Shown piece after piece: positions 6,819-50,083 of a stretch of DNA of 64,000 nt (position 1 is its first letter; every line of letters begins with the position of its first letter). The notes beneath the pieces are model-generated. The model was not told the origin of the DNA and ran no database searches. It saw only the letters and a list, made by a program, of their open reading frames with translations. Source of the DNA: Streptomyces sp. NBS 14/10 (GTDB lineage Bacteria > Actinomycetota > Actinomycetes > Streptomycetales > Streptomycetaceae); contig NZ_NCSM01000007.1 in NCBI RefSeq assembly GCF_002224125.1, positions 499,839-563,838 of the forward strand. Direction: 5' to 3'. Made by a program: the position numbers and the translations under genes.

Positions 6819-6969
6819 GCCCACGTCAGACGCGATGGCACGGTGCACGGTTCCGGGGCTCACACAAGGTCACCGGCAGGCCCGCTGAAGCTGCGAACTG
6901 AAGACAGCTGATGACGCGAGCTCACCAGCACCAAGGCGTCCGCCGCGCCGCCCCGCAATCGTCTGCCCG

Positions 6970-7986: not shown

Positions 7987-7993
7987 GTCGGCC

Positions 7994-8003
7994 ATCCTAA
8001 ACT
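7994..8003. promoter_or_regulatory. Overlapping divergent -10 elements, leaderless starts predicted
   Basis: On the minus strand TAGGAT (reverse complement of 7994-7999) stands 7 nt before the WD40 ATG. On the plus strand TAAACT (7998-8003) stands 7 nt before the ATG at 8011. Both fit TANNNT, and no ribosome-binding site fits in the 24-nt gap. No good -35 boxes are visible, so this is a prediction. Confidence 0.45.
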
Positions 8004-8010
8004 GACCGTC

Positions 8011-9358: not shown

Positions 9359-9440
9359 GCGACCGTCCCGCAGGCCGGCCCACGCCGCCCACGCCGCCTA
9401 CGCCACACATGCCTCGCACCTTCGCGGCCTCGCGCCTAGG

Positions 9441-9489
9441 CTGTCGCCGGAGGCGATGGCTACCCGCCGGTAGCCCCAGACGGCGACAG
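9441..9489. repeat. Nested inverted repeats in leader of the SDR gene
   Basis: An outer pair CTGTCGCC (9441-9448)/GGCGACAG (9482-9489) encloses an inner hairpin GGCTAC (9458-9463)/GTAGCC (9470-9475). The structure ends 18 nt before the start codon at 9508. It could be an operator or an RNA structure in the 5' leader. Confidence 0.6.
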
Positions 9490-9507
9490 ACCGCGAAGGA
9501 GCGCGAG

Positions 9508-10437: not shown

Positions 10438-10455
10438 CGACGCACGCTCACCGCT

Positions 10456-10929
10456 CTACTCCGCGGCGCGGCGCCGCTCCTCGATGCGGTTCAGCACGGC
10501 GCGCAGCGCCAGTTCGTAGCCGAAGACGCCGTGGCCGCACAGGTAACCCTGGCTCACCGCCGCCGTCACCGACGTGTGCCGGAACGGCTCGCGGGCGTGC
10601 ACATTGGAGATGTGGACCTCGATACACGGCACACCGAGGCCCGCCACGGCGTCCACCGCGTCACGCAGCGCATAGCTGTAGTGCGCGTACGCGCCGGGGT
10701 TGAAGATGATGCCGTCGTCGTGGCGGGCCTGGTGGACGAGGTCCACCAGCACGCCCTCGCTGTTGCTCTGCGCGCACCGCACCTCGGCGCCCAGTTCCTG
10801 CCCCAGCGCGGTCGTACGCTCCTCGATCTGCTCCAGCGTGGTGGCCCCGTACGTGGCGGGGTCGCGCTCGCCGAGCAGGTTGAGGTTGGGGCCGTGCAGC
10901 AGCAGGACGCGGGGGCGGGGGGCGGTCAT
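10456..10929 (-). CDS. aroQ: Type II 3-dehydroquinate dehydratase
   Basis: This 157-residue enzyme dehydrates 3-dehydroquinate to 3-dehydroshikimate. Family signatures are HGPNLNLLGERDPATYG (catalytic Tyr27 in the lid loop), NPGAYAHYSYALRDA and EVHISNVHAREPFRHTSV; the length is normal for the dodecameric type II enzyme. It starts 3 nt after the stop of the small upstream gene, so the two are coupled. That pair is preceded by the same 17-bp palindrome found at the zinc-dehydrogenase and IclR promoters. It may therefore be a catabolic copy serving quinate breakdown rather than the biosynthetic one; this is inference from the operator. Confidence 0.93.
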   Translation of the reverse strand: MTAPRPRVLLLHGPNLNLLGERDPATYGATTLEQIEERTTALGQELGAEVRCAQSNSEGVLVDLVHQARHDDGIIFNPGAYAHYSYALRDAVDAVAGLGVPCIEVHISNVHAREPFRHTSVTAAVSQGYLCGHGVFGYELALRAVLNRIEERRRAAE

Positions 10930-10931
10930 CG

Positions 10932-11252
10932 TCAGGGGTGTCCGATTCGTTCGTCGAGGGCGCGGCGGGCGTCTTCGAGGGCGGGGGCGGTGGTCCGGCG
11001 GGCCGTCTCGGCGTCGGGGAGGCCGAGGGCGGTGGCGATCTCGTCCCAGCTGCGGCCCGAGCCGAGCAGCGCCTGGACGGCGGCGCCGAGGGCGGCGTCG
11101 GTGGCGCGGCGGGCCTCGGCGATCTCGCTGAGGGTGGCGAGCAGATCGGGGGCGCCGCGGGCGGCGCCGGTGTGCCGGCCGACGAGGGTGAGCGACTGGT
11201 CCGCGGTCACCCACCAGTCGGCCGCGGTGGGGGGCTGTTGAGTCACGGTCAC
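10932..11252 (-). CDS. Small HTH-like hypothetical protein, co-transcribed with aroQ
   Basis: About 106 residues starting VTVTQQPP; a second GTG two codons later has GAGG at better spacing. The middle is Ala-rich and helical (LLATLSEIAEARRATDAALG). The C-terminal half resembles a bacterial HTH (SWDEIATALGLPDAETARRT), as in small regulators that gate sigma-like or AsnC-like binding. Its function is unknown. It is separated from aroQ by 3 nt and from its upstream operator (11293-11309) by about 40 nt. Confidence 0.65.
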   Translation of the reverse strand: MTVTQQPPTAADWWVTADQSLTLVGRHTGAARGAPDLLATLSEIAEARRATDAALGAAVQALLGSGRSWDEIATALGLPDAETARRTTAPALEDARRALDERIGHP

Positions 11253-11292
11253 CTCGCCATGGTAGCTCCGTGGACCGATGAACGGTTTGCTT

Positions 11293-11309
11293 GGTCCGCT
11301 GTACGGACC
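11293..11309. promoter_or_regulatory. 17-bp operator upstream of the aroQ operon
   Basis: GGTCCGCTGTACGGACC, an interrupted palindrome. It matches 15 of 17 positions with the copy at 14757-14773 and 13 of 17 with the copy at 14985-15001. It is a candidate site for the IclR regulator encoded at 15022. Confidence 0.7.
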
Positions 11310-11415
11310 ATGATCCGTGATCGTCGGCACAGCGGCGGCACACCGGCGGCGCACCGGCCAGCCTTGGCGAAGCGCGGCGGGCCCGTTCCGCCCGACGCGC
11401 TCCGCCTCACGTACC

Positions 11416-12777
11416 TCATGCCTCGACGCGCTCCACCTTGTCGATGAGCAGCGCGTACGCCAGCAGCCCCACGGCCACCACGATGCCGATGTAGCCGAGC
11501 GCCCAGGCGAAGGATCCGGTTCTGTCGACGATGATGCCGATCACCAGCGGGGTGAGCACCCCGCCCGCGTTGGCCATGAAGTTGAACACGCCGCCGCCGG
11601 TCCCGGTGAGCCGGCGCGGGACGGCGTCCGAGAACAGCGCCCAGCTGTTCTGCATCAGCCCCTGGGCGAAGAACGCGATCGACATGAAGGTGATCACGAG
11701 TGGAACGGAGTTGGTGAAGTTCGCACAAACGATGATCGAAGCCAGTACGAAGCCGATCATCACGGGCGCCTTGCGGGCGAACGTACGGGACTTCCCACTG
11801 TTGAGCATCCGGTCCGACCAGGCGCCGCCGACCAGCGTGCCGATCAACGCCGCGAGATACGGCGCGGAGGCCCAGAACCCGGCCTTGATGACGCCCATGT
11901 CCTTCTCCTCCACCAGATAGCTGGGGAACCAGGTGAGGAAGAAGAACAGCACGGAGGCGCTGGCGAACTGCCCGATGTACATGCCCCACAGCCGCCGGTT
12001 GGTGAGCAGCACCCGCAGATCGGCCCAGATGTCCGCGGGCTCGCTCGCCGCGGCCTTCTCGGCGGCGTCGGCCGTCTCCTGCTCGTCCGCCTGCCGGATG
12101 TAGGCGAGTTCCTCGGCGCTGACCCGCGGGCTCTGCTCCGGCCGGTCGAAGACCCGGCGGAACCAGACGACGGAGAAGAGCAGCCCGATGGCCCCGGTCA
12201 CCAGGAAGACCGAGTGCCATCCGAAGTGCACGGTGAGCAGCGAGAGCACCGGGGCGGCGATCGCCAGCCCGATGTACTCGCCCGCGGTGTAGGTGGCGGT
12301 GGCCCGCCCGCGCTCGCGGCCGGGGAACCAGTTGACGACGAGCCGGTTGTTGGACGGGAAGGCCGGGGCCTCGAAGGCGCCGAGCGCGACGCGCACGCCG
12401 ATCAGCGAGCCGAAGCCGCGGGTCAGCGCCATGGCCGCGGTGGCCAGCGACCAGCCGATCAGCGCGTATCCGAAGGCCAGCTTGGCGCCGACCCTGTCGA
12501 TGAGCCGCCCGGTGGGGATCTGGAGCAGCAGATACGCCCAGCCGAAGGAGGAGAGCAGCACGCCCTGTTCGGTGGCGCTGAGGTGGAAGTCGTCCTTGAT
12601 ATGCGGGAGGGCGACCGACAGGTTCGTACGGTCCAGGTAGTTGATCGCGGTGATGACGAACAGCGACGCGAGCAGGCCGTAGCGGGCGCGGCTGACGGCC
12701 GGGCGGGCGCTGTCGGGGAGGAGGGGCGGGGCGGCGGGGGTGTTGTCGGCGGGTGGGTTGGTTCTTGTGGTGCTCAT
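11416..12777 (-). CDS. MFS transporter, anion:cation symporter type
   Basis: 453 residues with 12 predicted membrane helices and family landmarks: NYLDRTNLSVALPHI after helix 1, GRLIDRVGAKLAFGY between helices 2 and 3, and the FPSNNRLVVNWFPGRERGRA stretch typical of the ACS family that imports organic anions such as galactonate, glucarate or phthalate. AAGGAG lies 5 nt before the ATG. It is the third gene of a presumed operon with the dehydrogenase and TIM-barrel genes. Given those neighbours, quinate or shikimate is a reasonable cargo, but this is inference. Confidence 0.9.
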   Translation of the reverse strand: MSTTRTNPPADNTPAAPPLLPDSARPAVSRARYGLLASLFVITAINYLDRTNLSVALPHIKDDFHLSATEQGVLLSSFGWAYLLLQIPTGRLIDRVGAKLAFGYALIGWSLATAAMALTRGFGSLIGVRVALGAFEAPAFPSNNRLVVNWFPGRERGRATATYTAGEYIGLAIAAPVLSLLTVHFGWHSVFLVTGAIGLLFSVVWFRRVFDRPEQSPRVSAEELAYIRQADEQETADAAEKAAASEPADIWADLRVLLTNRRLWGMYIGQFASASVLFFFLTWFPSYLVEEKDMGVIKAGFWASAPYLAALIGTLVGGAWSDRMLNSGKSRTFARKAPVMIGFVLASIIVCANFTNSVPLVITFMSIAFFAQGLMQNSWALFSDAVPRRLTGTGGGVFNFMANAGGVLTPLVIGIIVDRTGSFAWALGYIGIVVAVGLLAYALLIDKVERVEA

Positions 12778-12865
12778 GAAGACTCCTTGTCCCAGCCGGG
12801 GGACTCGGCCGAGGGGCAACAGGGGGACTCAGATGGGGATCTCAGCTGCGGGACTCAGCGGGAAC

Positions 12866-13726
12866 TCAGGCGGCGGGAGCGGCCACGGCAGCCGTGGCCA
12901 GGACACGACGCGTGGTCCGGTAAGCGCGCGCGGCGGTCTCCGCGGGTGCGCGGGCGTCGAGGTCGTCGGAAAGGACCTCGACCGACACGGGAGCCCGTAC
13001 GCCGGCTCGGCGCAGCAGACGCAGCAGACCGGTGAGGTCGGCCGCTCCCTCTCCCGGCAGCTGCCGCTGGTGGCGTGCTTCGTGCAGGGTGTCGGACAGC
13101 GCGGTGGGCAGCACGTCGTCGAGCTGGACGTTCACCACGGCGCCCGGCGGCAGGGCCGCGATCTCCTCGGGGCGGGTAAGGCCCCGGGTGAGATGCCAGG
13201 CGTCGAGGATCAGCCCCGGGGAGGCGGCCCCAGCCGGGCGCAGGGACCGTACGGCGGCCACGACGCGCGCCGCGAGGCCCAGGTCGCGGATGCCGGAGAA
13301 CGGCATGAACTCCAGCCCCAGCACCGCCCCCGCCCGCTCAGCGCGCTCGGCGGCCGTACGGAGCCCGTCGACCAGGTCCCGGTACGGGTGCTCATCGAAC
13401 ATCCCGGCGTTGACGCGCCGGGCGCCGAAGGTCTTGGCGATATGGAAGACGGTGTCGTCCTCGCTGCGCCGCCGCTCGTCGTAGCGCCGTGGCCGCGCCC
13501 AGTGGCGCAGCAGTTCCACCTCGGTGAGCCGCAGGCCGTACTCGGTCAGCAGGGCCGCCATCCGGGCGTCGGTCCAGCCCGCCGCACGGGCCTGGCGGTA
13601 CTGGTGCACGGCCAGCCCGATGCCGGTGAACCCGGCCTGCGCGGCGGCCCGGACGCGCTCGCCGAAGGTGGCGGTGCGCAGGGTCAGGGCGGACAGGGTG
13701 AGCGCGGGGGCGTCAGTCGTCGTCAT
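12866..13726 (-). CDS. TIM-barrel isomerase/dehydratase, candidate 3-dehydroshikimate dehydratase
   Basis: The 286-residue protein belongs to the AP-endonuclease-2/xylose-isomerase-like TIM-barrel superfamily. Four metal-ligand positions are present in order: Glu139 (GLEFMPF), Asp175 (ILDAWHL), Gln201 (VNVQLDD) and Glu250 (VSVEVLSDD), the same E-D-Q-E set used by AsbF/QuiC-type 3-dehydroshikimate dehydratases and by sugar isomerases. Its ATG lies inside the 3' end of the dehydrogenase gene (14-nt overlap), showing translational coupling. Next to a dehydroquinase and the pca operon, dehydration of 3-dehydroshikimate to protocatechuate is the most economical role. A sugar-acid isomerase remains possible. 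Confidence 0.75.
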   Translation of the reverse strand: MTTTDAPALTLSALTLRTATFGERVRAAAQAGFTGIGLAVHQYRQARAAGWTDARMAALLTEYGLRLTEVELLRHWARPRRYDERRRSEDDTVFHIAKTFGARRVNAGMFDEHPYRDLVDGLRTAAERAERAGAVLGLEFMPFSGIRDLGLAARVVAAVRSLRPAGAASPGLILDAWHLTRGLTRPEEIAALPPGAVVNVQLDDVLPTALSDTLHEARHQRQLPGEGAADLTGLLRLLRRAGVRAPVSVEVLSDDLDARAPAETAARAYRTTRRVLATAAVAAPAA

Positions 13727-14714
13727 CGAGGCAACCGCCGTCGCCCAGGGAGATCCAGGTCTTGCCGGCCCGCTCACGGGCCCCGGCGAACGCCTCCTGC
13801 GCACGCTCCAGCGGGAAGCGGGCACAGGTCGCCGCGCCGGGCCGCATCGCGCCGGAGGTGATGTCGGCCAGCGCGGCCGTGAAGTCACCGGGGTGGTCGT
13901 AGATGAGCGAGCCGCGCAGGGTGAGCTGGGAGCGGACCAGCTGGTTGACGCTGAGCGGCAGCCCCGCCGCGCCGAGCCCGACGAGGACGGCGGTGGCGCC
14001 GGGGACTGTGCGCTCCAGGGCCGCGCCCAGCGCGGCGGCCACCCCGGAGGACTCGAAGACGTAACGGAAGCCCCCCTCACCGTCGGCCGCCGCGCGGGCG
14101 CCCAGCGCCTCGGCGTGCGCCAGGCGGCTGGGGTGCGGTTCCACGACGGCCGGGCGGACGCCGATGGCCAGCAGCGCCTGGCACAGCAGCAGGCCCTGCG
14201 CGCCCGCGCCGACGACCAGGGTCTTGTCCCCGGCCCCGACTCCCCCGCGCCGCACGGCGGTACGGGCCACCGTGTACGGCTCGGCGCAGGCGAGGTCGGC
14301 GGGGTCGGCGGTGTCCGGGACGGGGTGGGCGAAGGGGGCGGGGACGGCGATCCGCTCGGCGAGGAGACCGGGCGCGTTCATGCCGACGATGGCGCGCTTG
14401 GTGCAGGCGGAGGTCAGGCCGCGGTCGCACTCGGGGCAGTCGAGACAGGCGTAGTTCGGTTCGACGACCACACGCTGGCCCACAGTGCGGTCCGCGACCC
14501 GCTCGCCGACGGCGACGATCCGGCCGAAGCCCTCGTGGCCAACGACCCACGGCAGCGCCGGGACGGCCCGGTCGCCGTCGAAGACGGCCAGGTCGGAGCC
14601 GCAGATGCCCATGCCTTCGACGCGGACCAGGACATCGTGGGGGCCACACTCGGGTTCCGGCCAGTCGTCGACTGTCTCAAGGCGGCGGGGAGCGGTGAGG
14701 ACGGCTGCTTTCAC
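13713..14714 (-). CDS. Zinc-dependent medium-chain dehydrogenase
   Basis: 333 residues with GTG start; AGGAG is 6 nt upstream. Catalytic zinc ligands Cys38 (ICGSD) and His60-Glu61 (GHEGFG) are present, as are four structural-zinc cysteines (90, 93, 96, 104 in CLDCPECDRGLTSAC) and the Rossmann motif VVGAGAQGLL. It is an NAD(P)-dependent polyol or alcohol dehydrogenase of the threonine/sorbitol dehydrogenase type. It is first in an operon with the TIM-barrel and MFS genes and carries an operator copy upstream. In a quinate/shikimate pathway it could oxidise the ring hydroxyl to 3-dehydroquinate or 3-dehydroshikimate; this is inferred. Confidence 0.88.
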   Translation of the reverse strand: MKAAVLTAPRRLETVDDWPEPECGPHDVLVRVEGMGICGSDLAVFDGDRAVPALPWVVGHEGFGRIVAVGERVADRTVGQRVVVEPNYACLDCPECDRGLTSACTKRAIVGMNAPGLLAERIAVPAPFAHPVPDTADPADLACAEPYTVARTAVRRGGVGAGDKTLVVGAGAQGLLLCQALLAIGVRPAVVEPHPSRLAHAEALGARAAADGEGGFRYVFESSGVAAALGAALERTVPGATAVLVGLGAAGLPLSVNQLVRSQLTLRGSLIYDHPGDFTAALADITSGAMRPGAATCARFPLERAQEAFAGARERAGKTWISLGDGGCLDDDD

Positions 14715-36037: not shown

Positions 36038-38764
<2,727 letters not shown>

Positions 38765-39083
38765 GGGACTCGATCTCCTCGGCTCGGCTGCCCTGACGGC
38801 GGGGAGCGTACCCAGATCAAAGGCTTCTGAGCATGTGCACTCCCCCGTCATTCGGCCGTAACCACCCGCCTGCCACGAGTTCGAAAGTCACTCGTACGAA
38901 ACAGCCCGCTTCTCGGCTTCTTCAAGAATCGAACACACGCCCACGCTGCGCCAACCCGGGAAGCGATCCATGTCGCTGTGCGTAATCATTGGTTCGAGGT
39001 GTCGAACATCAATAGATGGCACGGAGTGCCATGACTTGGAGAGGTGAGCACGACCCCTGACCGCCGGGTCACCCCGAGGTGAC

Positions 39084-39203: not shown

Positions 39204-39278
39204 GGGCCGCCGGGACGGGCTCGGATATCTTCGCCGTAACGGCAAAGCGAGGCCACGAACCCCCCCACGGAGCCCTTG

Positions 39279-40649
39279 GTGGAAAGCGGCGAGCCCTCCC
39301 AACCCGCGCCGATGCGGCTGCTGCACGGCGCCCGGCGGGTGCTCCTGGAGAACTGGACCGGCACCTCCACGGTCCCCTCGCGCGGTCTGTACCCGCACCA
39401 GTGGAGCTGGGACTCGGCGTTCATCGCCATCGGGCTGCGCCATCTGTCGCCGCACCGCGCCCAGCGCGAACTGGAAACCCTGCTGGCCGCCCAGTGGGGC
39501 GACGGCCGGATCCCGCACATCGTCTTCAACCCGGCGGTGCCACTGGACGCGTACTTCCCCAGCCCCGACTTCTGGCGCTCCTCCAGCGCGGGCGCGGCGC
39601 TCGGCGCGCCTACGGCCGTCGAGACCTCCGGCATCGTCCAGCCCCCGGTCCACGCCCTCGCCTGTCTGCTGGTGCATCGGGCCGACCCTCGGGCCTCGGC
39701 CCGCCGCGGCTTCCTGGCCCGCGTCTACCCACGGCTCGCGGCCTGGCACCGCTACCTCGCCGAACACCGGGACCTGGGCGGGGGCGGGCTGGTGTCCGTG
39801 GTCCACCCCTGGGAGCCCGGCATGGACAACAGCCCCTGCTGGGACGCCCCGCTGGCACGGATCGCCCCTGCTTCGCCCGACACCTTCCACCGCGCCGACC
39901 TCGACCACGGCGCGGCCACCGACCGGCCCACCGATCTGGACTACGGCCGCTATGTGCGGCTCGCCGCCGACTACCGGGACCGCGGCTACGGCGATGACGG
40001 CGGGGCCAGTTCGGCGTTCTGTGTCGAGGACCCGGGCGTCAACGCGCTGCTGATCGCTTCCGAGCACGCCCTGGCCGAGATCGCCACCGCCGTCGGCGCC
40101 GACCCGACGCCCCACCAGTCGCGGGCACGGCGGCTCACCGCCGCCCTGGTCGAGCGGCTGTGGGACCCGGCCGCCGAGCTGTTCCTGTGCCGTGATCTGC
40201 GCGGCGGCGGGCTGATCCCCGAGCTCAGCGCCGCGGGTCTGCTGCCACTGATCGTGCCCGACCTCCGGCGCGAGGTCGCGGCCGCCCTGATCCGCACCGC
40301 GTCGGGTCCTCACTTCGGCCTGGGCGGCCCGGTGCGGCTCGTACCCAGCTACGACCTGCTGGGGCACGCCTTCGACCCGTACCGCTACTGGCGCGGCCCC
40401 GCCTGGTTCAACGTCAACTGGCTGCTGGAGCGCGGTCTGCGGCTCCACGGCGCGGCGGACCGGGCCGACGCGCTGCGCTCCGCCGCCCTCGACGCCGCCG
40501 TCTCCTCCGGCTTCGCCGAGTACGTCGACCCGTACACCGCCGAGGCGCGCGGCACCCGCGACTTCAGCTGGACGGCGGCGCTGGCGCTGGATCTGCTGGT
40601 AGCGGCGGAACGGGAGGCTTCATCCGTGGAAGCCTCCCGTGCGGACTGA
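39279..40649 (+). CDS. GH63/mannosylglycerate-hydrolase-like glycoside hydrolase
   Basis: 456 residues forming an (alpha/alpha)6 barrel. Motifs match the MGH1/glucosylglycerate hydrolase and GH63-related group: PHQWSWDSAFIAIGL, AAQWGDGRIPHIVFNP, HPWEPGMDNSPCWD with the likely catalytic Asp, YRYWRGPAWFNVNWLL and FAEYVDPYTAEARGTRDFSW. No signal peptide, so a cytoplasmic compatible solute such as glucosylglycerate is a likely substrate (inference). GTG 39279 has ACGGAG 6 nt upstream; a TTG one codon earlier is possible. Convergent with the conflict-system operon, only 7 bp between stops. Confidence 0.85.
   Translation: MESGEPSQPAPMRLLHGARRVLLENWTGTSTVPSRGLYPHQWSWDSAFIAIGLRHLSPHRAQRELETLLAAQWGDGRIPHIVFNPAVPLDAYFPSPDFWRSSSAGAALGAPTAVETSGIVQPPVHALACLLVHRADPRASARRGFLARVYPRLAAWHRYLAEHRDLGGGGLVSVVHPWEPGMDNSPCWDAPLARIAPASPDTFHRADLDHGAATDRPTDLDYGRYVRLAADYRDRGYGDDGGASSAFCVEDPGVNALLIASEHALAEIATAVGADPTPHQSRARRLTAALVERLWDPAAELFLCRDLRGGGLIPELSAAGLLPLIVPDLRREVAAALIRTASGPHFGLGGPVRLVPSYDLLGHAFDPYRYWRGPAWFNVNWLLERGLRLHGAADRADALRSAALDAAVSSGFAEYVDPYTAEARGTRDFSWTAALALDLLVAAEREASSVEASRAD
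40610..40640. terminator. Bidirectional hairpin inside the end of the glycoside hydrolase gene
   Basis: Perfect 12-bp stem ACGGGAGGCTTC / GAAGCCTCCCGT with a 7-nt loop. It lies 9 bp before the hydrolase stop and 17 bp beyond the stop of the convergent TPR gene, so it can end both transcripts. Confidence 0.75.
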
Positions 40650-40656
40650 ACTCACG

Positions 40657-43600
40657 TCACGCTTCCTGATCGTCGTCCATCGCCCGCAACCGGGCCATGG
40701 CCTGGCGGATTCTGACGATGGAGTCATGCTCCTCGCCCAGCACGCGCTCGCCGATCTCGAAGACCGCGCGCAACTCGGCCTCGGCCTCGTCGAGCCGGCC
40801 GAGGCCCATGAGGGCGGCGCAGAGGTTATTGCGGGTCGAGAGGGTCGCTGAATCCTCCGGCCCCAGGACGAGCTGACGCCCCCGCAAGGTCTCCCTGATC
40901 TCCGTCTCGGCCTCCGCGAACCGGCCCAGCTCGTTGAGGACATGGCCGAGGCTGTGCCGGGCGGTCAGCGTCGCTTCGGCCTCGGCGCCGAGGGACCGCG
41001 TACGCCCCTCGACCACCTGGCGGAAAAGGGGCTCGGACTCCTCGTAACGCTTCTGGTCGCTCAGCAGGGTGGCCAGTTGGAAATGTGTCAGCAGCGCGCT
41101 CGGGGCGTCCCGCCCCAGCACCCGGGCCTCCACCTCCATGGTCACGCGGTACTCGGCCTCGGCCTCTTCCAGGAGTTCGAGTTTCACCAAAGTCCCGGCA
41201 CGGTCGTATCGCGTCACCAGCGTCGCCTCAGCATCCGGTCCGAACGTGCGAATCCGGTCGCGGAGCACCCGGGTGAACTCCTCCAGCGCCTCTTCGTACC
41301 GCCCGGCCGCCTCTATGCTGCTCGCCAGATACTGCCGGGTGGTGAGGGTGCTGTGATGCTCGGCTCCCAGCACGGCGCTCTGCCGCTCCAGAACGTCGCG
41401 GTAGGCAGCTTCCGCTTCGCCGTACCGCTCCTGTTCGTCCAGGAGTTCCGCCCGCAGGCGCAGTGCGACCAGCGATTCCTCGTGCCGCTCCCCGAGTGCG
41501 CTGAACGACTCCTCCACCAGCATGTCCATCTCGGCTTCCGCCTCGCCGTACCGGCCAAGGCTGACCAGCCGGTTGATGTGGTTACGACGCGCCTGGCGCA
41601 GCTGCCAGTGGCCGGGCCCCCGGATTGCCAATGCCCTCTCGGCCACCTCGCGCCACACCGACTCCGCCTCTTCGTGGTGCCCCCTCGCCGTCAGGATCTC
41701 GCCCAGTGCGGAGAGTGCCCTCAGCAAGGCGGCGTCGGCGTCCGACTCGGCCGATCGGCATTCCTCGACCGCCGACCGCATCTCGGCCTCGGCCTCGTCA
41801 TAACGCCCCAGCTCCTGCAACGTGGTGGCCAGCCAGACGCGTCCGTCGACGGTGTCGTAGTGCCAAGGGCCCCGCAGTTCGCGTTGGCCGCGCACCACGG
41901 TGCGAAACTCCGCTTCGGCCTCTTCCCTACGGAGCAGCTGCAGCAGTAGAGTCCCCCGCTCCCAGTGCAGATGCAGGAGCATCGCTCGGTCCTCGTCATC
42001 CAACAGCCGTTCCCACGCCTCGATCAGCGTGCGGCACTCGTCCTCAGCTGCTGCCGTCCGCCCGGCGTCGTCCAGAAGACTGACGAGCCTGGCGCGAACG
42101 AAGAGCGTGCGGCCGTCCTCCTCGCCATGGATCCTCTCCGAGATCTCCGCCACCGCACGCATCTCGCGCTCCGCTTGGGTGTGCTCTCCCAGCTCGTTCA
42201 GGGTGACCGCCAATTCCGCACGGAGCTCCTGGGACTCGAGGTCCTCGAAAGACGCCAGTACCTCGAGTTGCTCCAGCACCACCTCACACAGCTCATCGGC
42301 GTACGTCCGCCACCCACACCCGACGAGCTGATTGGCCAGATCGGGCAGGGTCCGCACCCCGAACCAGCCGGTGTCATCCCACTCTTCAACCGCGTCCAAC
42401 ACCTCCTCGACGCTCTCGCGCACCAACCTCGGCAGCCCCTCGTCCGCCGAGATCCGCCGCACCACCGCGATCAGGGGCGGCTGGACGCGCTCGGAGGTGT
42501 AGGAGCGATCAGACGGCTGAGCAGGCGATTCGGCTGGCCGCGCCGGCTCCCCCGGCCCCGGCCCCGCCCCCGGCGGCGGCCCGTCGTACGGGTCCTCCTC
42601 CAGCAGTCCCAGCCGTTGCCGCAGCTCCGGGGAGGCCGCGGCGAAGGGGCGGGCCTCCTCGGCGACGCGGGAGTCGCCGTGGTCCCCGGACAGCCGGGCG
42701 CGGAACTCGGGGCCGGTGCCCTGGCGGTGCAGCAGGAACTCGGTGACCTGCGCCGCCGTCTCCAGCGCGTCCGAGGTGCGGACGCCGTCCAGCAGCAGAT
42801 CCGCGAGGCCGGGGTGGAACTCGTACTCGTCCCCGTCCGCGCCTGCCTCCCGCCTCCGCAGCAGCCCGCCCAGGAACACCTCGGCCAGCTGCGCCGGGTG
42901 GAAGCGCTCCCCTCGGCGCTCCCCTCGGCGCTCCCCGCGGCCGGCGCCCGCCTGGTGGATCAGCCGCATCACCGGCAGCGTCAGCGGATGGACGGTGGCC
43001 AGCGCCCCGGCCAGGCGCTGGCTCTCGGGGGAGGCCGCGGCCCGGAAGCGGCGCAGCCGCTCCTCGGCCGTCGGCGCGGGGACCTGGGCCGTGGCCTGTG
43101 CGGCCACCGGTTTCTCGGCCCCGTCCAGCAGCATCACCGGCAGCAGCGCGCTGCCGTCGCCCGTGCCGGTGAGCGTGGCCCACGCGCCCAGCTCGTCCTC
43201 GGCCAGTTCCAGCACCGGCACCGGGGTGCCCTCGTACGAGACGAGGCCGCGCGGCAGCACCGGATGGCGCACGGACAACACGCGGCCCGGTGCGCCCTCC
43301 CGGCCCCCGGCCTCGACCAGCAGCCGCTGGGTGGGCATACCGCGCTCCGGCCACATCCGGGCGGGCAGCGGCTGGATGACGGCCACGGGCGAGTGGCGGG
43401 CCCAGCGGTGGAGGAGCCGGGGGATGGCGCCGCTGCGCCAGCCGGGGCCCACCCCGTCCGAGAGGACCAGCATCACCGTACGGCCCGAGATGTCGGTGAG
43501 CTGCCGTGCGGTACGGCGCGGGGCGTCGGGGGCGTACGGGCGGGCCGTGAGCACCGGCTCGGGCCCCGATGCGCTGTCCAGGCCGTAGGTCCGTACGGAG

Positions 43601-44205
43601 CGGAAGGCTCCCTGCCGCTCCAGCAGGCCGCGCACCTCGGCGGCCAGTTGGCGCCAGAGCACCATCGAGGGGCCGTCGTCCACGACGAGCGCGGCGCTCA
43701 GCCGCCGCTCCGGGCGCGGGCGCAGCAGCACGTCCGGCAGACCGGTTTCGGCGATCCAAGCGGCGGTGGCGGCCTCGTCCATGTGGAAGTGGGTGCGGGA
43801 GGGCACGCTCCGCCGCAGGGGCCGCAGCGCGCGGGACAGCCCGCGCGCCGCGGGGAGCGCCCGTACGCCCCTGACCCCGACCGCGCGCGCCGGGCGGGCC
43901 CCGGCGGGCCGGGCGGTGCCGGGGGCGAAGAGCCCGGCGGGGGCGAGGGCTTCGGGCTCGGGTTCGCCGGCGGTGCGCTGCGCGGCGAGGTGACGCTGGG
44001 CGCCCTTCCTCTCCTCGCCGCTGTCGGAGGCCCCGTCGGACGCGGGACCGTCGGCACCCGCGGTCGACGCCTGCTCCGCGCCGTCGCCGTCGCCATCGGT
44101 CGCGGACGGCGCGGTGGTGGCGGCGAACCACAGGACGTCGCGCAGCTCCACCTCGGAGAGCTCAACCCCCGCGTCCTCCAGCAGGGCGCACAACCGCTGG
44201 ATCAT
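40657..44205 (-). CDS. vWA-like/SAV_2336-N protein with C-terminal TPR array
   Basis: 1182 residues. The first 35 (MIQRLCALLEDAGVELSEVE) match the N-terminal module of SAV_2336-type Streptomyces proteins, followed by an acidic linker. At about 165-345 is a vWA-like domain with a MIDAS-like DDGPS (ALVVDDGPSMVLWRQL) and a later VMLVLSDGVG strand. Next is a helical region (about 380-560) with an RGERRGERRGERF repeat. From about 600 to the end there are roughly a dozen 42-residue TPRs with YxEAExxxR periodicity. It is the vWA partner of the MoxR ATPase; the TPRs probably recognise a trigger. ATG overlaps the MoxR stop (TAATG). Last gene of the operon. Confidence 0.88.
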   Translation of the reverse strand: MIQRLCALLEDAGVELSEVELRDVLWFAATTAPSATDGDGDGAEQASTAGADGPASDGASDSGEERKGAQRHLAAQRTAGEPEPEALAPAGLFAPGTARPAGARPARAVGVRGVRALPAARGLSRALRPLRRSVPSRTHFHMDEAATAAWIAETGLPDVLLRPRPERRLSAALVVDDGPSMVLWRQLAAEVRGLLERQGAFRSVRTYGLDSASGPEPVLTARPYAPDAPRRTARQLTDISGRTVMLVLSDGVGPGWRSGAIPRLLHRWARHSPVAVIQPLPARMWPERGMPTQRLLVEAGGREGAPGRVLSVRHPVLPRGLVSYEGTPVPVLELAEDELGAWATLTGTGDGSALLPVMLLDGAEKPVAAQATAQVPAPTAEERLRRFRAAASPESQRLAGALATVHPLTLPVMRLIHQAGAGRGERRGERRGERFHPAQLAEVFLGGLLRRREAGADGDEYEFHPGLADLLLDGVRTSDALETAAQVTEFLLHRQGTGPEFRARLSGDHGDSRVAEEARPFAAASPELRQRLGLLEEDPYDGPPPGAGPGPGEPARPAESPAQPSDRSYTSERVQPPLIAVVRRISADEGLPRLVRESVEEVLDAVEEWDDTGWFGVRTLPDLANQLVGCGWRTYADELCEVVLEQLEVLASFEDLESQELRAELAVTLNELGEHTQAEREMRAVAEISERIHGEEDGRTLFVRARLVSLLDDAGRTAAAEDECRTLIEAWERLLDDEDRAMLLHLHWERGTLLLQLLRREEAEAEFRTVVRGQRELRGPWHYDTVDGRVWLATTLQELGRYDEAEAEMRSAVEECRSAESDADAALLRALSALGEILTARGHHEEAESVWREVAERALAIRGPGHWQLRQARRNHINRLVSLGRYGEAEAEMDMLVEESFSALGERHEESLVALRLRAELLDEQERYGEAEAAYRDVLERQSAVLGAEHHSTLTTRQYLASSIEAAGRYEEALEEFTRVLRDRIRTFGPDAEATLVTRYDRAGTLVKLELLEEAEAEYRVTMEVEARVLGRDAPSALLTHFQLATLLSDQKRYEESEPLFRQVVEGRTRSLGAEAEATLTARHSLGHVLNELGRFAEAETEIRETLRGRQLVLGPEDSATLSTRNNLCAALMGLGRLDEAEAELRAVFEIGERVLGEEHDSIVRIRQAMARLRAMDDDQEA

Positions 44206-45167
44206 TACGCGTCGACTTCGTTCAGCGAGCGGAGCAGCTTGTTCAGGATGTCCCCGTCCACCCGCACCCCGGAGGACCGCAGCCGGACCGCGTTGAGCAG
44301 CTGGTCGGTGGCCAGCTCCCGCTCGTTGCGCAGACTCATGAAGTGGGCGATCAGGTCCCGTGCGTCCGCGCTGACCTCCTCGCCCAGATGCATGGTGACG
44401 ATCTGCTGCAGCTGCTGCTCATCGGGTTGCCTGAGGTCGAGCCGTACGCAGCGGCGCAGAAACGCCGGGGGGAACTCGCGCTCGCCGTTGCTGGTGATGA
44501 CGACGACCGGGAAGACCCGGCAGCCCACCCAGCCGCCGGTGACCGCCACCCTTTCCCGGGAACCGGCCACCTGCACCCGGACCGAGGTGCCCTCCCCCAG
44601 GCGGAACAGTTCGGGGATCTCGAACTCGCCGTCCTCGAAGACGGTGAGGAGGTCGTTGGGCAGGTCCACATCGCCCTTGTCGAGCTCGTCGATGAGCAGC
44701 ACGCGCGGCCTGTCGGCCGGCAGCAGCGCGGTGCCGAGCGGGCCGAGCCGCAGATAGTCGCCGATGTCCGGCTCGGGTCCGGTGGTCTCTTCGGTGGCGG
44801 CGCGCTGCCTCAGGGAGGTCTCGCGCAGCCGGCCCACCGCGTCGTACGAGTAAAGACCCTCGGTGAGCGTGGAGCGGCTGTTGATCGGCCAGTGCAGTAC
44901 CTCGCCGAGGGTGAGCTCACGTGCGACGGCGCGGGCCAGGGTCGACTTGCCGGTGCCGGGCGGGCCGGTGACCAGCAGCGGGCGGTGCAGGTGCAGCGCC
45001 ATGTTGACGACGTCGCGGTCCTCTTCGGAGATCAGATACGGCAGCCGCCCCTGGGATCTGCGCGGCGAGTCGTCGCCGAAGCGCCGCCACGGCGGTGCGG
45101 CGGGCCAGGTCTCCACGTCGTGGGGCTCGGTGTCGCCGCCCTGGAAGAGCCTCCAGTCCTGTGCCAT
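44205..45167 (-). CDS. MoxR-family AAA+ ATPase
   Basis: 320 residues. Walker A GPPGTGKS is near residues 66-73, Walker B LLIDELDKGD near 153-162, sensor-1 Asn in VVVITSNGERE, and the Arg-finger region FPPAFLRRCVRLDL. MoxR ATPases remodel vWA-containing partners, and here the vWA-like gene follows with a one-base overlap. Upstream, the caspase-VMAP gene stops 14 nt before this ATG. It is the NTP-dependent switch of the predicted conflict system. Confidence 0.93.
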   Translation of the reverse strand: MAQDWRLFQGGDTEPHDVETWPAAPPWRRFGDDSPRRSQGRLPYLISEEDRDVVNMALHLHRPLLVTGPPGTGKSTLARAVARELTLGEVLHWPINSRSTLTEGLYSYDAVGRLRETSLRQRAATEETTGPEPDIGDYLRLGPLGTALLPADRPRVLLIDELDKGDVDLPNDLLTVFEDGEFEIPELFRLGEGTSVRVQVAGSRERVAVTGGWVGCRVFPVVVITSNGEREFPPAFLRRCVRLDLRQPDEQQLQQIVTMHLGEEVSADARDLIAHFMSLRNERELATDQLLNAVRLRSSGVRVDGDILNKLLRSLNEVDA

Positions 45168-45181
45168 TGTCTTCTGTCTCC

Positions 45182-47464
45182 TCAGGGTGCCGACAGGTCG
45201 AGTTTTTCCGGGAGCGGTCGGTGGGGATCGTCCCACAGCAGGGCCACATGTCTGCCCGGATGGCTCTCGTCGGCGTCGCTCGCCGACCGGAGCTTGCGCA
45301 GATGCTGGGGCAGGGTCTTGAGCCGTTCGGCGCCGCGCAGGGCGTCCTTCAACTCGGCTCGCGCGGTGTCCGGTTCCGCCTCGACGTGCCATAGGAGGAC
45401 GGGCACTCCGCCGAACAGACAGGCGTTGAAGACCTCGGAACGAGCCCGCGCCGGGGCGGTCACCACCGCGCCCGGGGCGTCCTCCTTGCCCTGGAGGTCA
45501 CCGTGGACCTGCTTGAAGGTGTTCATATGCGCGGGCAGCCAGTGCAGATCCTCGGCGCCCGCCGTGCCGGCCTTGTGCCACCGCCGCTCCCAGACGTGCC
45601 GCTGATTGGCGCGCAGCTCGGTGCAGCGCACCACGACCGGATAGTCGGTGCCCAGTGAGCGCTCCAACGGGCCCTGGGCGTCGAGCTGCCAGCGGTGGAC
45701 CGCCAGTTCGAGGTCGGTGGGGGCCACGAAGAACTCCACCAATGTGTCGAGGGTACGGGCGTGCCTGGTCAGGAGGTTGTCCAGGCCGCGCTGTATCTCC
45801 TCCAGCGAGGCGGGGGTGTCGGCCTTCGCCAGGGAGCGTACGGTCTCGCCGACCCGCGACCAGACCTCGTAGGCGCGCCGCTGCCCACTGCCGCCCGGTG
45901 GGTGCAGTCGTATCTGGATACTCCCGCCGCTACCGCTGGGAGATGCGCCCTGGTCCGCGGCGGTGTCGGGGCGGGCGTGGCGGCGCCGGGCGTGTTCCTC
46001 CGCTTCGGCGCGCCGCTCGTGCAGCTGACCGTCGAGCCCAAGCCGCTGGGCGCACCCCAGCGACCAGGTGCGCAGCTCGCCCGCGATCTCGCCGCCGAGC
46101 GCCGCGAAGTGCTCCACGACGCGCAGCAGCTGCGGGAGTTGCCTCGGCGGGGGGAGCAGCAGGGCTTCGAGGTCGTCGACGAGCGCGGTCGGTTCGAGGG
46201 ACGGGAGGTCGACGGGGTACTGGTCCCGGGCGACCTCGGCGATGTCGTACCGGCCCGGCTCGTCCAGCCGGCCCAGCAGCGCGACGAGCCGCGCGTACTC
46301 GGCGCGGGTGAGCCACTGGTTCTGGAGGGCGTGGCACGCCTTGTGGAACTCCGCGCGGGCCGGGGGCCGTTCGCCGGTGAGCTCGGCCAGGAGCGTGGCC
46401 GTGCCGTGCGGGTTGGCCAGCGCCCAGTCGACCAGTTCCTCGGCCGAGGGGGGCACCGTACGGGGCGATGGGGTGGTGAACTCGTCGCAGAGCCTGGCGG
46501 CGACGGCCACCGCGCGCCCGGGCTCGGCCACCAGCAGACCGGCCACCTCGTAGATCAGCTTCTGCCGGGACCGCTGCTGCTCTGGGTCCAGGGGGCGGCG
46601 CCAGCTGAACTCACGCTCCTTCTCCGCCTGCCAGTTGCTGACGAAAACCGTGGGGAGCTGCCGCGTCCCCTCGTCCTCGCGCAGCCGGTCGAACTCGTCC
46701 GAGACGCCCTGCCACACCCGGTCCAGGTCCGGCGCCGCCCCGTCCGCTGAGGCCGCTTTGAGCTGCCGTAACAGTACGGAGGTGAACAGGCCGGCACCCT
46801 GCTGGTTCTTGGCGACGGCCCCGGGCTGGCAGGCCCGCATCCAGAAGATCTGGCGGTCATGGTCGGTCTGCGGATCGATGGGGAGCGTGTCCGGGCTGTC
46901 GGCCAGTTCATGGACGCCGACCTGGAGGGCCTGTCGGCAGGTGTCGATGACCACGGTGACCCTGCCCATGCTCGACCACTTCAGATGGTCCGTCCGCAAC
47001 AGGTTGACCAGGCTGTCGGCGTCCGCCCCCTGGATGTCCCTCTCATGGGTCTCGGGATACAGCAGGCTCCACCGGCCGTCCCGCGCCTGCACCCCGTGCC
47101 CGGCCCAGTAGACCCACAGCCAGTCGCCGTCGATCTCGCGCAGCCCCTCCCGGAAGAGCTTGCGCACATGGGCGCGGTCCGCCGGTCGGTACGCGGGGTG
47201 CACCGCCTCCAGGGCCGCCCTGTTGTGCCGCATGGGGGAGGCCAGCAGCTGGATGTTCTCCGCGGGGACGCCCTGCCCGGTCAGCCACTTCCGCATCTCG
47301 ATGGCGTCGTGCACCGGGCCGTCGAGGTTCAGATCGTCGCCGCCGTTGTACTGCTCGACCGCCACGATCACGGCATGGGTGCGGCGCCAGTCGTATGACG
47401 CCTGTGCCACCTGAGTCGCCTGTGCCGCTTGTGCCACCTGTGTCGCGTGCGCCGCCTGCCTCAC
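45182..47464 (-). CDS. Caspase-like protease fused to VMAP-C-type region
   Basis: 760 residues. A low-complexity N-terminus (repeats of TQVAQA, encoded by degenerate 18-bp DNA repeats) precedes a caspase/metacaspase fold with the catalytic dyad His123 (YWAGHGVQ) and Cys176 (VVIDTCRQ). Residues about 285-470 are helical (EAD/VMAP-middle-like). Residues about 500-760 match the VMAP-C pattern: SIQIRLHPPGG, EFFVAPTDLELAVHRWQL, DYPVVVRCTELRA, WERRWHK and ALLWDDPHRPLP. VMAP proteins link a vWA-MoxR pair to an effector; here the effector protease is in the same chain. GTG start overlaps the hydrolase stop by 4 nt (GTGA). Confidence 0.88.
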   Translation of the reverse strand: MRQAAHATQVAQAAQATQVAQASYDWRRTHAVIVAVEQYNGGDDLNLDGPVHDAIEMRKWLTGQGVPAENIQLLASPMRHNRAALEAVHPAYRPADRAHVRKLFREGLREIDGDWLWVYWAGHGVQARDGRWSLLYPETHERDIQGADADSLVNLLRTDHLKWSSMGRVTVVIDTCRQALQVGVHELADSPDTLPIDPQTDHDRQIFWMRACQPGAVAKNQQGAGLFTSVLLRQLKAASADGAAPDLDRVWQGVSDEFDRLREDEGTRQLPTVFVSNWQAEKEREFSWRRPLDPEQQRSRQKLIYEVAGLLVAEPGRAVAVAARLCDEFTTPSPRTVPPSAEELVDWALANPHGTATLLAELTGERPPARAEFHKACHALQNQWLTRAEYARLVALLGRLDEPGRYDIAEVARDQYPVDLPSLEPTALVDDLEALLLPPPRQLPQLLRVVEHFAALGGEIAGELRTWSLGCAQRLGLDGQLHERRAEAEEHARRRHARPDTAADQGASPSGSGGSIQIRLHPPGGSGQRRAYEVWSRVGETVRSLAKADTPASLEEIQRGLDNLLTRHARTLDTLVEFFVAPTDLELAVHRWQLDAQGPLERSLGTDYPVVVRCTELRANQRHVWERRWHKAGTAGAEDLHWLPAHMNTFKQVHGDLQGKEDAPGAVVTAPARARSEVFNACLFGGVPVLLWHVEAEPDTARAELKDALRGAERLKTLPQHLRKLRSASDADESHPGRHVALLWDDPHRPLPEKLDLSAP

Positions 47465-48726
47465 CGGGGCAGCTCCGGGGCCAGCAGTTCGTACAGCCGC
47501 TGGTGGGCGAAGTACGAGGTGTGGGCGCGCGGAAAAGGCTGGCGGGTGTTGACGCGCAGGTCGGTGACCCGGTCGGGGAAGACCTTCTCGCCGACGAAGC
47601 CGAGCAGATCGTGCTCGTCGTGGACGTTGAGCCAGCGGGGGAAGGCGTCGGGCAGCGGCTCGTCGCGGCGCAGGGAGGTGAGCGCGTCCAGCTCGTAGAG
47701 GAACGGCGCCTGCGAGCCGACCGTCACCAGCAGCGCCACCTCCGGCGGCGGCTCGGTGGCATCCGCGAGGAGATCGACACAGGCGATGCCGCCGAGGCTG
47801 TGGGCGAGCAGCACGACCGGCCCGTCGCCGCTCTCGGCCGCCTCGCGCACCGCCGCGCGGATCGCGGCCCGCACACCGGCACCGCGCGCCTGGTAGCGGA
47901 GGATGTCGCCACTGGCCGGGACGGAACCATTGGTGATCCGGCCGCGATATCTGTGGGCCAGCGAAGAGATCGGTGACAGGTAGGAGTTGAGCGCCCGCAC
48001 GGCGATGCCCTTCGCGGCGCCGGCGGCGACTCCGCCCCGGCCGGTACCGCCCAGCTGTTCGGTGAGCGCGCCGACGACGGTGTCCCGGTCGGCACCGTCC
48101 GCCTCGACCGGTTCGCCGACGCCCCGCGGACCCTCGGCCAAGCCCTCGGCCAAGCCGACGGCCAGGGCGTATACGGCGCGGGCCGCGATCTGCTCGATGC
48201 CGTCGACGGGCGGCGTGCCGCCCAGGGTGCGGGAGATCTCATGGGCGACGCGGGCCCCGGCCGTGCCGAGATGCGGCGCGAGATCAGTGGCCAGCTCGCC
48301 CAGACTGCCCCCACCGTCCGCCACGGCCTTGAGGCTCAGCCCGCGCACCTTGTCGGCGGTGTCCTGCCAGGGGTCCCGGCGCCCGGGGGCGAAGCCGACC
48401 CGCGCTGCTCCCCCGCCGCGCCGTGCCTTCGCCGCCTCCGCGAATTCCCGCAGCTCGGCGAGCGGATCGGCCTCCAGCAACGCCCAGACGGCCAGCGGAT
48501 CGTCCTCGTCCAGCAGGGCGTCGCCGCCGACCCCCCGGTTCTGCGTCCGCACCGGGATCGACGCGCCGCCGAGGCCCAGCGAGGCACCGTGCTCCTCGCC
48601 CCAGAAACAGCGGACGACCCGGGCCTCGGCTCTCGCCCGGCCCAGGCCGCTCACCACCCGCGCGAAGCTCTTCTCGTACGACGCGGCCCGGACCCCCGTG
48701 CCATGGACGAAGACGACGCTTGTCAC
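47461..48726 (-). CDS. Alpha/beta hydrolase, first gene of the vWA-MoxR-VMAP operon
   Basis: 421 residues with lipase-like landmarks: VVFVHGTGVR at the N-terminus (oxyanion loop), nucleophile Ser in LLAHSLGGIACVD, Asp in WLNVHDEHDLLGFVG and His in RAHTSYFAHQRLY. A long helical insertion of about 150 residues lies between the first strands and the nucleophile. No signal peptide. It overlaps the caspase-VMAP gene by 4 nt, so it is translationally coupled to it. It could be a second effector acting on lipids or esters, or a regulator of the system. GTG start; GGGGGG purine tract just upstream. Confidence 0.85.
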   Translation of the reverse strand: MTSVVFVHGTGVRAASYEKSFARVVSGLGRARAEARVVRCFWGEEHGASLGLGGASIPVRTQNRGVGGDALLDEDDPLAVWALLEADPLAELREFAEAAKARRGGGAARVGFAPGRRDPWQDTADKVRGLSLKAVADGGGSLGELATDLAPHLGTAGARVAHEISRTLGGTPPVDGIEQIAARAVYALAVGLAEGLAEGPRGVGEPVEADGADRDTVVGALTEQLGGTGRGGVAAGAAKGIAVRALNSYLSPISSLAHRYRGRITNGSVPASGDILRYQARGAGVRAAIRAAVREAAESGDGPVVLLAHSLGGIACVDLLADATEPPPEVALLVTVGSQAPFLYELDALTSLRRDEPLPDAFPRWLNVHDEHDLLGFVGEKVFPDRVTDLRVNTRQPFPRAHTSYFAHQRLYELLAPELPR

Positions 48727-48834: not shown

Positions 48835-49968
48835 TCAGCCGCCGGAGGTGTCCAGCTCCGCGTCCGCGCTGACGCCCGCGCAGTCGTACGGGTCGTCCAG
48901 CCAGCCGTCCGGCAGCACCACGCGGTTGCGGCCGGAGGTGCGCCCGCGCGGGCCGTCCGCGCCCGCCGGCCATTCCTGGTCCAGGTCCAGCTCGCCGAGC
49001 AGCGCGTCCAGCTCGGCCAGGGACGAGGTGATCGCCAGCCGCTTGCGCATCTCGGAGCCGACCGAGAAGCCCTTGGTGTACCAGGCGACGTGCTTGCGGA
49101 AGTCGATGACGCCGCGCTCCTCGTCCTCCAGCCACTGGGCCAGCAGTTCGGCATGGCGCCGCATGACCGCCGCGACCTCCTTGAGGGTCGGCCGGGCCGG
49201 TGCGCCGCCGCCCTCGAAGGCCGCCACCAGGTCGCCGAACAGCCACGGCCGCCCCAGGCAGCCGCGCCCCACGACCACGCCGTCGCAGCCCGTCTCGCGC
49301 ATCATCCGCACCGCGTCGTCCGCCGACCAGATGTCGCCATTGCCCAGCACCGGGACCTCGGGGACGGCCTCCTTCAGCCGGGCGATGGCGTCCCAGTCGG
49401 CGGTGCCGCCGTAGTGCTGCGCCGCCGTACGGCCGTGCAGCGCGATGGCGGTCACGCCCTCCTCGACCGCGATCCGGCCCGCGTCGAGGTAGGTGATGTG
49501 GTCGTCGTCGATGCCCTTGCGCATCTTCATCGTCACCGGCAGCGGGCCCGCGCCGGTCACGGCCTCGCGCAGGATCGAGCGCAGCAGGTGGCGCTTGTAC
49601 GGGAGCGCCGAGCCGCCGCCCTTGCGGGTGACCTTGGGCACCGGGCAGCCGAAGTTGAGGTCGATGTGGTCGGCCAGGTCCTCTTCGACGATCATCCGTA
49701 CGGCCTTGCCGACGGTCACCGGGTCCACCCCGTACAGCTGGATGGAGCGGGGCTTCTCGGTCCCGTCGAAGTGGATCAGCCGCATGGTCTTGGCGTCGCG
49801 CTCGACCAGCGCCCGGGTCGTGATCATCTCGCTCACGAACAGCCCCTTGCCGCCGCTGAACTCGCGGCAGAGGGTGCGGAACGGCGCGTTGGTGATCCCG
49901 GCCATGGGTGCGAGCACCACCGGCGGGGTCACCGTGTGCGGTCCGATCTGCAGTTGCGTGGCGGTCAT
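48835..49968 (-). CDS. dusB: tRNA-dihydrouridine synthase B
   Basis: 377 residues; reduces uridine in tRNA using FMN and NADPH. Family signatures: VVLAPMAGITNAPFR, the active-site Cys in DLNFGCPVPKVTRKGGGSAL, TMKMRKG, ALHGRTAAQHYGG and VLGNGDIWSADDA, then the C-terminal helical domain. ATG giving MTATQLQIG is preferred; the frame extends 14 codons 5' without a better ribosome-binding site. The short C-terminal tail is acidic. Core housekeeping gene. Confidence 0.95.
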   Translation of the reverse strand: MTATQLQIGPHTVTPPVVLAPMAGITNAPFRTLCREFSGGKGLFVSEMITTRALVERDAKTMRLIHFDGTEKPRSIQLYGVDPVTVGKAVRMIVEEDLADHIDLNFGCPVPKVTRKGGGSALPYKRHLLRSILREAVTGAGPLPVTMKMRKGIDDDHITYLDAGRIAVEEGVTAIALHGRTAAQHYGGTADWDAIARLKEAVPEVPVLGNGDIWSADDAVRMMRETGCDGVVVGRGCLGRPWLFGDLVAAFEGGGAPARPTLKEVAAVMRRHAELLAQWLEDEERGVIDFRKHVAWYTKGFSVGSEMRKRLAITSSLAELDALLGELDLDQEWPAGADGPRGRTSGRNRVVLPDGWLDDPYDCAGVSADAELDTSGG

Positions 49969-50083
49969 GGAAAAGGTGTCCTCGGGTATGGGGCTCGGGT
50001 ATGGGGCCAAAAGAGAGGCGAACTCTCATTGTCCCGCATGGTGCCGTACAGCCTGACCCGACTTATCGATGTAGCGTTCAACC

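Follow-up and report, generated by a model that had tools for sequence, protein, structure and literature searches.

A caspase- and hydrolase-bearing vWA-MoxR-VMAP locus of Streptomyces sp. NBS 14/10 as a candidate conflict system

Analysis of a 64,000-nucleotide stretch of the Streptomyces sp. NBS 14/10 genome (contig NZ_NCSM01000007.1, from an assembly of 12.1 Mb in 127 contigs), hereafter the window, has revealed a locus of four minus-strand genes encoding, in this order, a putative alpha/beta hydrolase (421 aa, GTG start; positions 47461..48726), a caspase-VMAP fusion (760 aa, GTG start; 45182..47464), a MoxR AAA+ ATPase (320 aa; 44205..45167) and a SAV_2336-type von Willebrand factor A (vWA) protein with a C-terminal array of tetratricopeptide repeats (TPRs) (1182 aa; 40657..44205). 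This arrangement, with junctions of a 4-nt overlap, a 14-nt gap and a 1-nt overlap as described in an initial annotation of the same DNA, is borne out when the MoxR gene is taken to start at 45167. The MoxR reading frame is open from 45392, and the likelier start is the ATG at 45167, which follows a GAGGAGA ribosome-binding site and stands just ahead of WRLFQG and PPWRRF, motifs described for the N termini of MoxR proteins in VMAP systems. The hydrolase/caspase junction is less certain: of the 24 other proteins in our caspase-VMAP alignment (A1, comprising 25 of 49 sequences), 23 begin some 18-19 residues after the GTG at 47464 (the exception is P0035), and the true junction may be a short gap rather than a 4-nt overlap. 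No promoter or terminator was found in a scan of the locus limited to sigma-70 type promoters, and PADLOC returned only a generic caspase match and AAA-type matches for the window.

The domain matches of the four-gene locus are well beyond chance and agree with the originally proposed component identities and vWA-MoxR-VMAP assignment. In the second gene's protein, hidden Markov model (HMM) scans with Pfam and NCBIfam models recognised Peptidase_C14 (7.6e-16) in the caspase domain (residues 25-280; 46625..47392), VMAP-M0 (PF19916, 5.5e-7 at residues 386-486) within a middle region that is helical in the predicted structure (residues 295-497; 45974..46582), and VMAP-C (PF20028, 6.9e-41 at residues 534-747) in the C-terminal domain (residues 515-758; 45191..45922). 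The third protein matched AAA_5 (2.8e-10). The fourth combines SAV_2336_NTERM (NF041121, 3.2e-119), which we read as covering the helical extensions that probably flank the vWA part, with TPR_12 (1.3e-45); its N-terminal region with the vWA metal ion-dependent adhesion site (MIDAS) aspartates D176 and D250 spans residues 19-495 (42721..44151), and its TPR region, built of 42-residue repeats, residues 576-1182 (40660..42480). Because only TPRs are recognised past the vWA part, the caspase and the hydrolase are, as judged from sequence, the only recognised effector-type enzymes of the locus. Three further VMAP-C genes occur in the same genome, bearing EAD2, EAD2 and trypsin domains, respectively.

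The catalytic residues assigned to the caspase at the outset, His123 (codon 47096-47098) and Cys176 (codon 46937-46939), are correctly numbered and invariant in 25/25 aligned caspase-VMAP proteins. They are likewise kept in 21/21 sequences of a wider residue comparison comprising the window, eight of 17 close loci (see below) and the loci L068, L069 and L092-L101, in which L094 contributes no MoxR or vWA row. The predicted structure bears out a caspase fold, its nearest neighbours being the MALT1 paracaspase and metacaspases (identity of approximately 12-21% in those alignments), and in a comparison with the model of the whole fusion protein all matches were taken up by caspases (residues 17-280). 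MALT1 and metacaspases are not known to carry a VMAP fusion. When the PDB was searched by sequence, the caspase-VMAP profile matched nothing at E 0.01, and the caspase domain gave a single chance-like match. Two further residues, D53 and D174, putative acids of the S1 pocket, are invariant in the 25 close proteins.

Assignment of the first gene's product to the alpha/beta hydrolases comes from its fold model (predicted local distance difference test score, pLDDT, 77), which resembles lipases and esterases; the Pfam scan gave sub-threshold matches only (Abhydrolase_1, 0.011), and the best match of its profile in the PDB sequence search was a putative lipase (0.0053). The protein was held against the features of phospholipase A/DDHD or LCAT-like lipases, namely the fold and a Ser-Asp-His triad. 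Among 121 aligned homologues, S310 (codon 47797-47799), D370, D373 and H402 are found in 120/120 of those with a residue there, and across the wider comparison Ser310, Asp373 and His402 are present in 21/21 and Asp370 in 20/21 sequences. Arg261, kept in 119/121 homologues, was considered as a cleavage site and set aside: an active-site role explains its conservation equally well, and many other residues are invariant. No other full-length protein of the hydrolase's family was found in the window genome, and relatives of the hydrolase extend to Embleya, Amycolatopsis, Dactylosporangium and a Chloroflexota bin. A regulatory rather than an executioner role, in which an esterase or thioesterase would de-acylate or make a small-molecule signal, or would restrain the caspase, is in our estimate unlikely.

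The remaining two proteins carry the marks of a ternary system. The N-terminal WRLFQG and PPWRRF of the MoxR protein fit the WxhapG and PsWRxa motifs of vWA-MoxR-VMAP systems, and PsWRxa was present in all ten distant MoxR proteins checked; the Walker A Lys, Walker B Glu and arginine finger are conserved in 20/20 loci compared, as is D250 of the vWA MIDAS site (D176, 19/20). It is very improbable that MoxR and vWA form an ordinary pair here, with a metabolic or chaperone task and neighbours unrelated to it. Many MoxR-vWA pairs are indeed assembly chaperones (Kaur et al., 2020; PMC7159879), but the VMAP-C and SAV_2336 domains, the VMAP-type MoxR motifs and the co-occurrence of the components at unrelated sites speak against such a reading here.

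The vWA-MoxR-VMAP system, with its fixed order VMAP > MoxR > vWA, was defined in the same study (PMC7159879), and the window shows its features of membership, i.e., a C-terminal VMAP-C domain, the gene order, the MoxR motifs and the vWA MIDAS aspartates. It also shows those of the caspase/hydrolase subtype: an intact His/Cys dyad on the VMAP protein and a neighbouring alpha/beta hydrolase. The likeness extends to the N-terminal caspase, M0, the TPRs on the vWA protein and the adjacency of the hydrolase, and nothing defining differs from the published account (PMC7159879). The novelty implied for the four-gene layout in the initial annotation is therefore not upheld, since that study already states that a caspase-bearing VMAP protein "always" has a neighbouring alpha/beta-hydrolase gene; a new layout is rejected, and the window locus is a further member of a described class. 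What our analysis adds to the published account is the dus-PPDK site (described below), two loci that combine an unfused EAD2-caspase with the same hydrolase family, the structural class to which each of the two enzymes belongs, and the relative rates of change. Elsewhere, vWA-MoxR-VMAP genes with CARF domains have been placed close to CRISPR loci (PMC10910872), and the terms MoxR, vWA and VMAP do not occur in PMC13092281. In agreement with the earlier remark that the layout lacked an experimental test, no functional test of VMAP systems was found in openly licensed papers (subscription papers being mostly outside this search and preprints not covered by it).

A scan of genomes with two peptide patterns yielded 17 related caspase-VMAP loci, all in Streptomyces, a restriction that holds for close relatives only because the patterns came from Streptomyces proteins; the named ones among 48 caspase-VMAP matches are likewise all Streptomyces. 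Many of these relatives presumably belong to the violaceusniger/hygroscopicus group. The order hydrolase > caspase-VMAP > MoxR > vWA is present in 16/17 close loci (two of these contigs end within the vWA gene), the seventeenth lying on a contig that ends within the caspase gene, and the same arrangement was found in a further Streptomyces genome, G321 (L069). All 17 loci adjoin dus, a tRNA-dihydrouridine synthase-like gene named by inspection, which in the window lies outside the system (48835..50010, minus strand). The gene for pyruvate phosphate dikinase (PPDK), also named by inspection (36038..38851, minus strand), stands on the other side in 13/17; the remaining four stretches end too early to show it, although in the case of S. 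anulatus PPDK is visible in L071, a longer stretch apparently from the same genome. Between PPDK and the operon the window additionally holds an MGH1-like glycoside hydrolase gene (39276..40649, plus strand; PF22422, 4.1e-119), convergent with the operon.

Presence of the system at this site is patchy. At least 3/150 sampled Streptomyces (G000, G321 and G339), the window's own genome included, have a VMAP-C match in the interval from dus to PPDK. A relative, G299 (L072), presents an empty site, with dus directly adjoining the glycoside hydrolase gene: homology stops just past the dus stop codon and restarts where the latter gene has its 3' end, and no target-site duplication was evident there in two local alignments, which were not exhaustive. 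A mobile element was rejected for the window, where the dus-PPDK space consists of the four genes and the glycoside hydrolase gene, none of them a mobility gene (a check of the window only, with small open reading frames unscanned and other loci not searched). Also rejected were the dus-PPDK site as a general VMAP hotspot, as only two (L069 and L071) of 19 fetched sites, hand-picked for gap size or a VMAP match rather than at random, held the system and none of the four proteins matched at E 1e-5 in the other 17, and plasmid linkage of the close family, for which no plasmid record covered at least 80% of either query.

Several side observations concern the same site and its occupants. In a relative of the window genome, G291 (L070; PPDK 94%, dus 90%), approximately 10.6 kb between PPDK and dus (3336-13907) match none of the four proteins and represent another occupant. 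In S. violaceusniger NBRC 13459 (L051) the best tblastn segments are partial (caspase-VMAP 289-760, vWA-TPR 232-634), which suggests frameshifts arising from decay or draft sequence errors. A VMAP-C gene lies roughly 30-120 kb from PPDK on the same contig in 17 Streptomyces genomes (G357, G139, G347, G255, G262, G335, G328, G247, G092, G264, G253, G014, G016, G251, G329, G342 and G333), and these genes may reflect the preferred chromosomal location described by Kaur et al. (PMC7159879). PPDK matches with one in-frame stop each were seen in G316, G360, G364, G200, G140, G010 and G255, the stops falling perhaps in a poorly conserved N-terminal stretch before the true start.

Beyond the close family, L068 (G180) is a full-length relative of approximately 30% identity at an unrelated site, and the hydrolase query retrieved ten distant loci (L092-L101), three from genomes and seven from plasmid records, five of the latter being matched by the caspase query too. 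With HMMs built from our own alignments, hydrolase, caspase, MoxR and vWA are found in 9/10 of these loci, and in 9/10 a caspase-like gene directly adjoins the hydrolase gene. VMAP-C is recognised by our own HMM or Pfam in 8/10 (L092 and L095-L101), with a VMAP-M18 match in its place in L093. The caspase calls that fall below the Pfam cut-off are based on the HMM we built and on alignment of the catalytic His and Cys, and the L099 gene is annotated as a caspase in its own record. The vWA tails are diverse: TIR in L068, L096 and L100 (sub-threshold in L097), a helix-turn-helix domain with DUF5753 in L095, NB-ARC with TPRs in L092, a sub-threshold DO-GTPase in L093, an annotated serine protease in L099 and nothing recognised in L098. 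Because these tails vary while both enzymes stay, hydrolase and caspase are, on this comparative evidence, the constant pair across loci. Since L100 lies on a plasmid of Burkholderia stagnalis, the caspase/hydrolase subtype is not limited to Actinomycetota. Phylum-wide profile searches scored 2 and 4 candidates per genome and gave at least 1 and at least 2 positive genera of 236, these counts being lower bounds.

Two of the distant loci depart from the fused architecture. In L092 the hydrolase-caspase pair is placed behind the vWA gene and the caspase carries EAD2; in L101 an unfused caspase lies 9.4 kb from the hydrolase, and both the caspase and the VMAP protein carry EAD2, a distribution that by analogy fits the EAD tethering logic proposed by Kaur et al. 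(PMC7159879). The L101 locus (NZ_CP109170.1, 11434-22940) reads hydrolase > EAD2-VMAP > MoxR > fxsT (vWA-TPR), followed by a HEXXH-motif gene and the EAD2-caspase. HEXXH genes belong to peptide-processing systems, and L101 may be an exception to a published mutual exclusivity; the qacH resistance call of its record covers the HEXXH gene and looks spurious. In L098 (9489-11409) the reading frame of the caspase part is not that of the VMAP-C part, which points to either separate genes or a frameshift.

Rates of change were compared as nonsynonymous-to-synonymous ratios (dN/dS; Nei-Gojobori, pairs with dS of 0.1-1.2) over 15 syntenic loci (14 for PPDK); high G+C biases the absolute values, and what matters is how far the regions differ from the flanks. 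The fastest regions on average are M0 (0.75) and the TPRs (0.72), with means of 0.67 and 0.61 for the linkers around the vWA part, 0.60 for the caspase, 0.55 for the hydrolase lid, 0.49 for VMAP-C, 0.37 each for vWA and MoxR, and 0.29-0.38 for the hydrolase core, vs. 0.17 for dus and 0.14 for PPDK. Variability on the TPR helix faces was set aside as proof of a binding groove, being suggestive only with 15 sequences. Two published proposals assign sensing differently, to the VMAP middle region, with the peptidase releasing vWA-borne effectors (PMC7159879), or to the vWA protein, with the VMAP peptidase acting (PMC10907252). The initial annotation, in which the TPR/vWA protein senses, MoxR switches and the caspase kills, matches the latter type of model. 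Both the M0 and the TPR regions fit as sensors, and the rates do not choose between the published models because both candidate regions are fast.

Over 11 loci without L092 and L101, the four proteins of the system are closely correlated in their pairwise distances (r 0.94-0.95; Mantel, 0/5000). Over ten distant loci, L092 and L101 included, the hydrolase correlates at 0.85 with MoxR and 0.84 with vWA, and the caspase at 0.66 and 0.65 (0.65-0.66 with MoxR, vWA and VMAP-C). These measurements bear directly on the published model (PMC7159879) as it would apply here, in which the VMAP middle region senses, MoxR remodels, and the caspase cuts the vWA protein to free the TPR module, which would then serve as scaffold, decoy or dominant-negative binder with no more than assistance from the hydrolase. 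We consider this the strongest of the alternatives, albeit a clearly less probable one: M0 is the fastest-changing region measured and the linkers around the vWA part are fast, as cleavable linkers might be, yet the piece released at the window locus would consist of TPRs and no recognised enzyme, and no component follows MoxR and vWA more closely than the hydrolase does, which is odd for a mere helper.

Overall, the window locus represents the caspase/hydrolase subtype of vWA-MoxR-VMAP ternary conflict systems, and the best reading, to which we give moderate confidence, is a caspase-hydrolase executioner behind a MoxR-vWA-VMAP switch. In such a scheme, the four proteins would rest in an inactive complex that would sense invader material through the rapidly changing surfaces of VMAP-M0, of the TPRs or of both. 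Driven by ATP, the MoxR ring would then remodel the VMAP-vWA complex via the vWA MIDAS site, releasing a MALT1/metacaspase-like and probably Arg/Lys-directed caspase. Caspase and lid-bearing, lipase-like hydrolase would together damage the cell, attacking proteins and probably membrane lipids, and the cell would die or halt growth before the invader could spread; any activation of the hydrolase by the caspase is conjectural. The observed basis of this scheme comprises the components, their order and co-occurrence, the conserved catalytic residues, the predicted folds and the relative rates. A physical ternary complex and its switching by nucleoside triphosphates are predictions in the original description as well (PMC7159879).

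A number of observations weigh against this interpretation. The fixed chromosomal position (17/17 beside dus) is unlike that of a mobile defence island, and no region reaches a mean dN/dS of 1. Shared history contributes to the distance correlations, for which there is no outside control gene, and over the ten distant loci the caspase correlates more weakly with its partners than the hydrolase does with MoxR and vWA. The putative S1 acids are not universal in the wider set (D174 in 19/21, D53 in 18/21), Foldseek matches of the hydrolase all fall short of E <= 0.001 (best 1.9e-3), and the Pfam caspase model passes its cut-off in 3/8 distant caspase genes scanned (L093, L100 and L101, but not L068, L092, L094, L098 or L099; L095-L097 unscanned). 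L094 has Asn in place of hydrolase D370, and neither a MoxR nor a vWA gene was recognised around its hydrolase-caspase pair within the stretch retrieved. The fixed site also fits a different role that is not dedicated to phage defence, namely regulated cell death or a stress response as part of a multicellular life cycle, as does the published link of VMAP systems with multicellular bacteria (694 of 716 organisms surveyed being scored multicellular; PMC7159879). We nevertheless regard this role as unlikely, given the patchy presence of VMAP-C between dus and PPDK, the occurrence of relatives on large plasmids (one in Burkholderia) and the high divergence relative to the flanks.

A more specific version of the executioner scheme, offered as speculation, is that a MALT1-like caspase freed by MoxR would open a lid-gated, phospholipase-like hydrolase by cutting within residues 229-270 (a poorly predicted segment of the model that holds Arg261), the couple being reused with interchangeable sensors or tails. 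It is an equally tentative thought that such a caspase-lipase system might be a bacterial parallel to caspase-driven lytic death, a lipase replacing the pore-former. Known systems provide partial comparisons. VMAP systems diversified by a diversity-generating retroelement share the MoxR-vWA-VMAP core and a peptidase on VMAP, but combine a trypsin-type peptidase with variable C-type lectin domains, vs. caspase and TPRs in the window (PMC10907252). The CARD-NLR-like LypABC system likewise has ATPase and peptidase parts leading to lysis, yet relies on an NLR-like switch and a trypsin-like peptidase (VMAP has 0 occurrences in the main text), and phospholipases are named there as alternative death effectors of CARD-NLR systems (PMC13236601).

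VMAP systems are common in multicellular bacteria, and the window locus offers a favourable test case for them, being a compact operon with only TPRs recognised beyond the vWA part, with two enzymes whose catalytic residues are identifiable and with the empty site of a related genome as a natural comparison. If it is true that the caspase acts with a lipase, protease-led membrane death would be extended beyond gasdermins.

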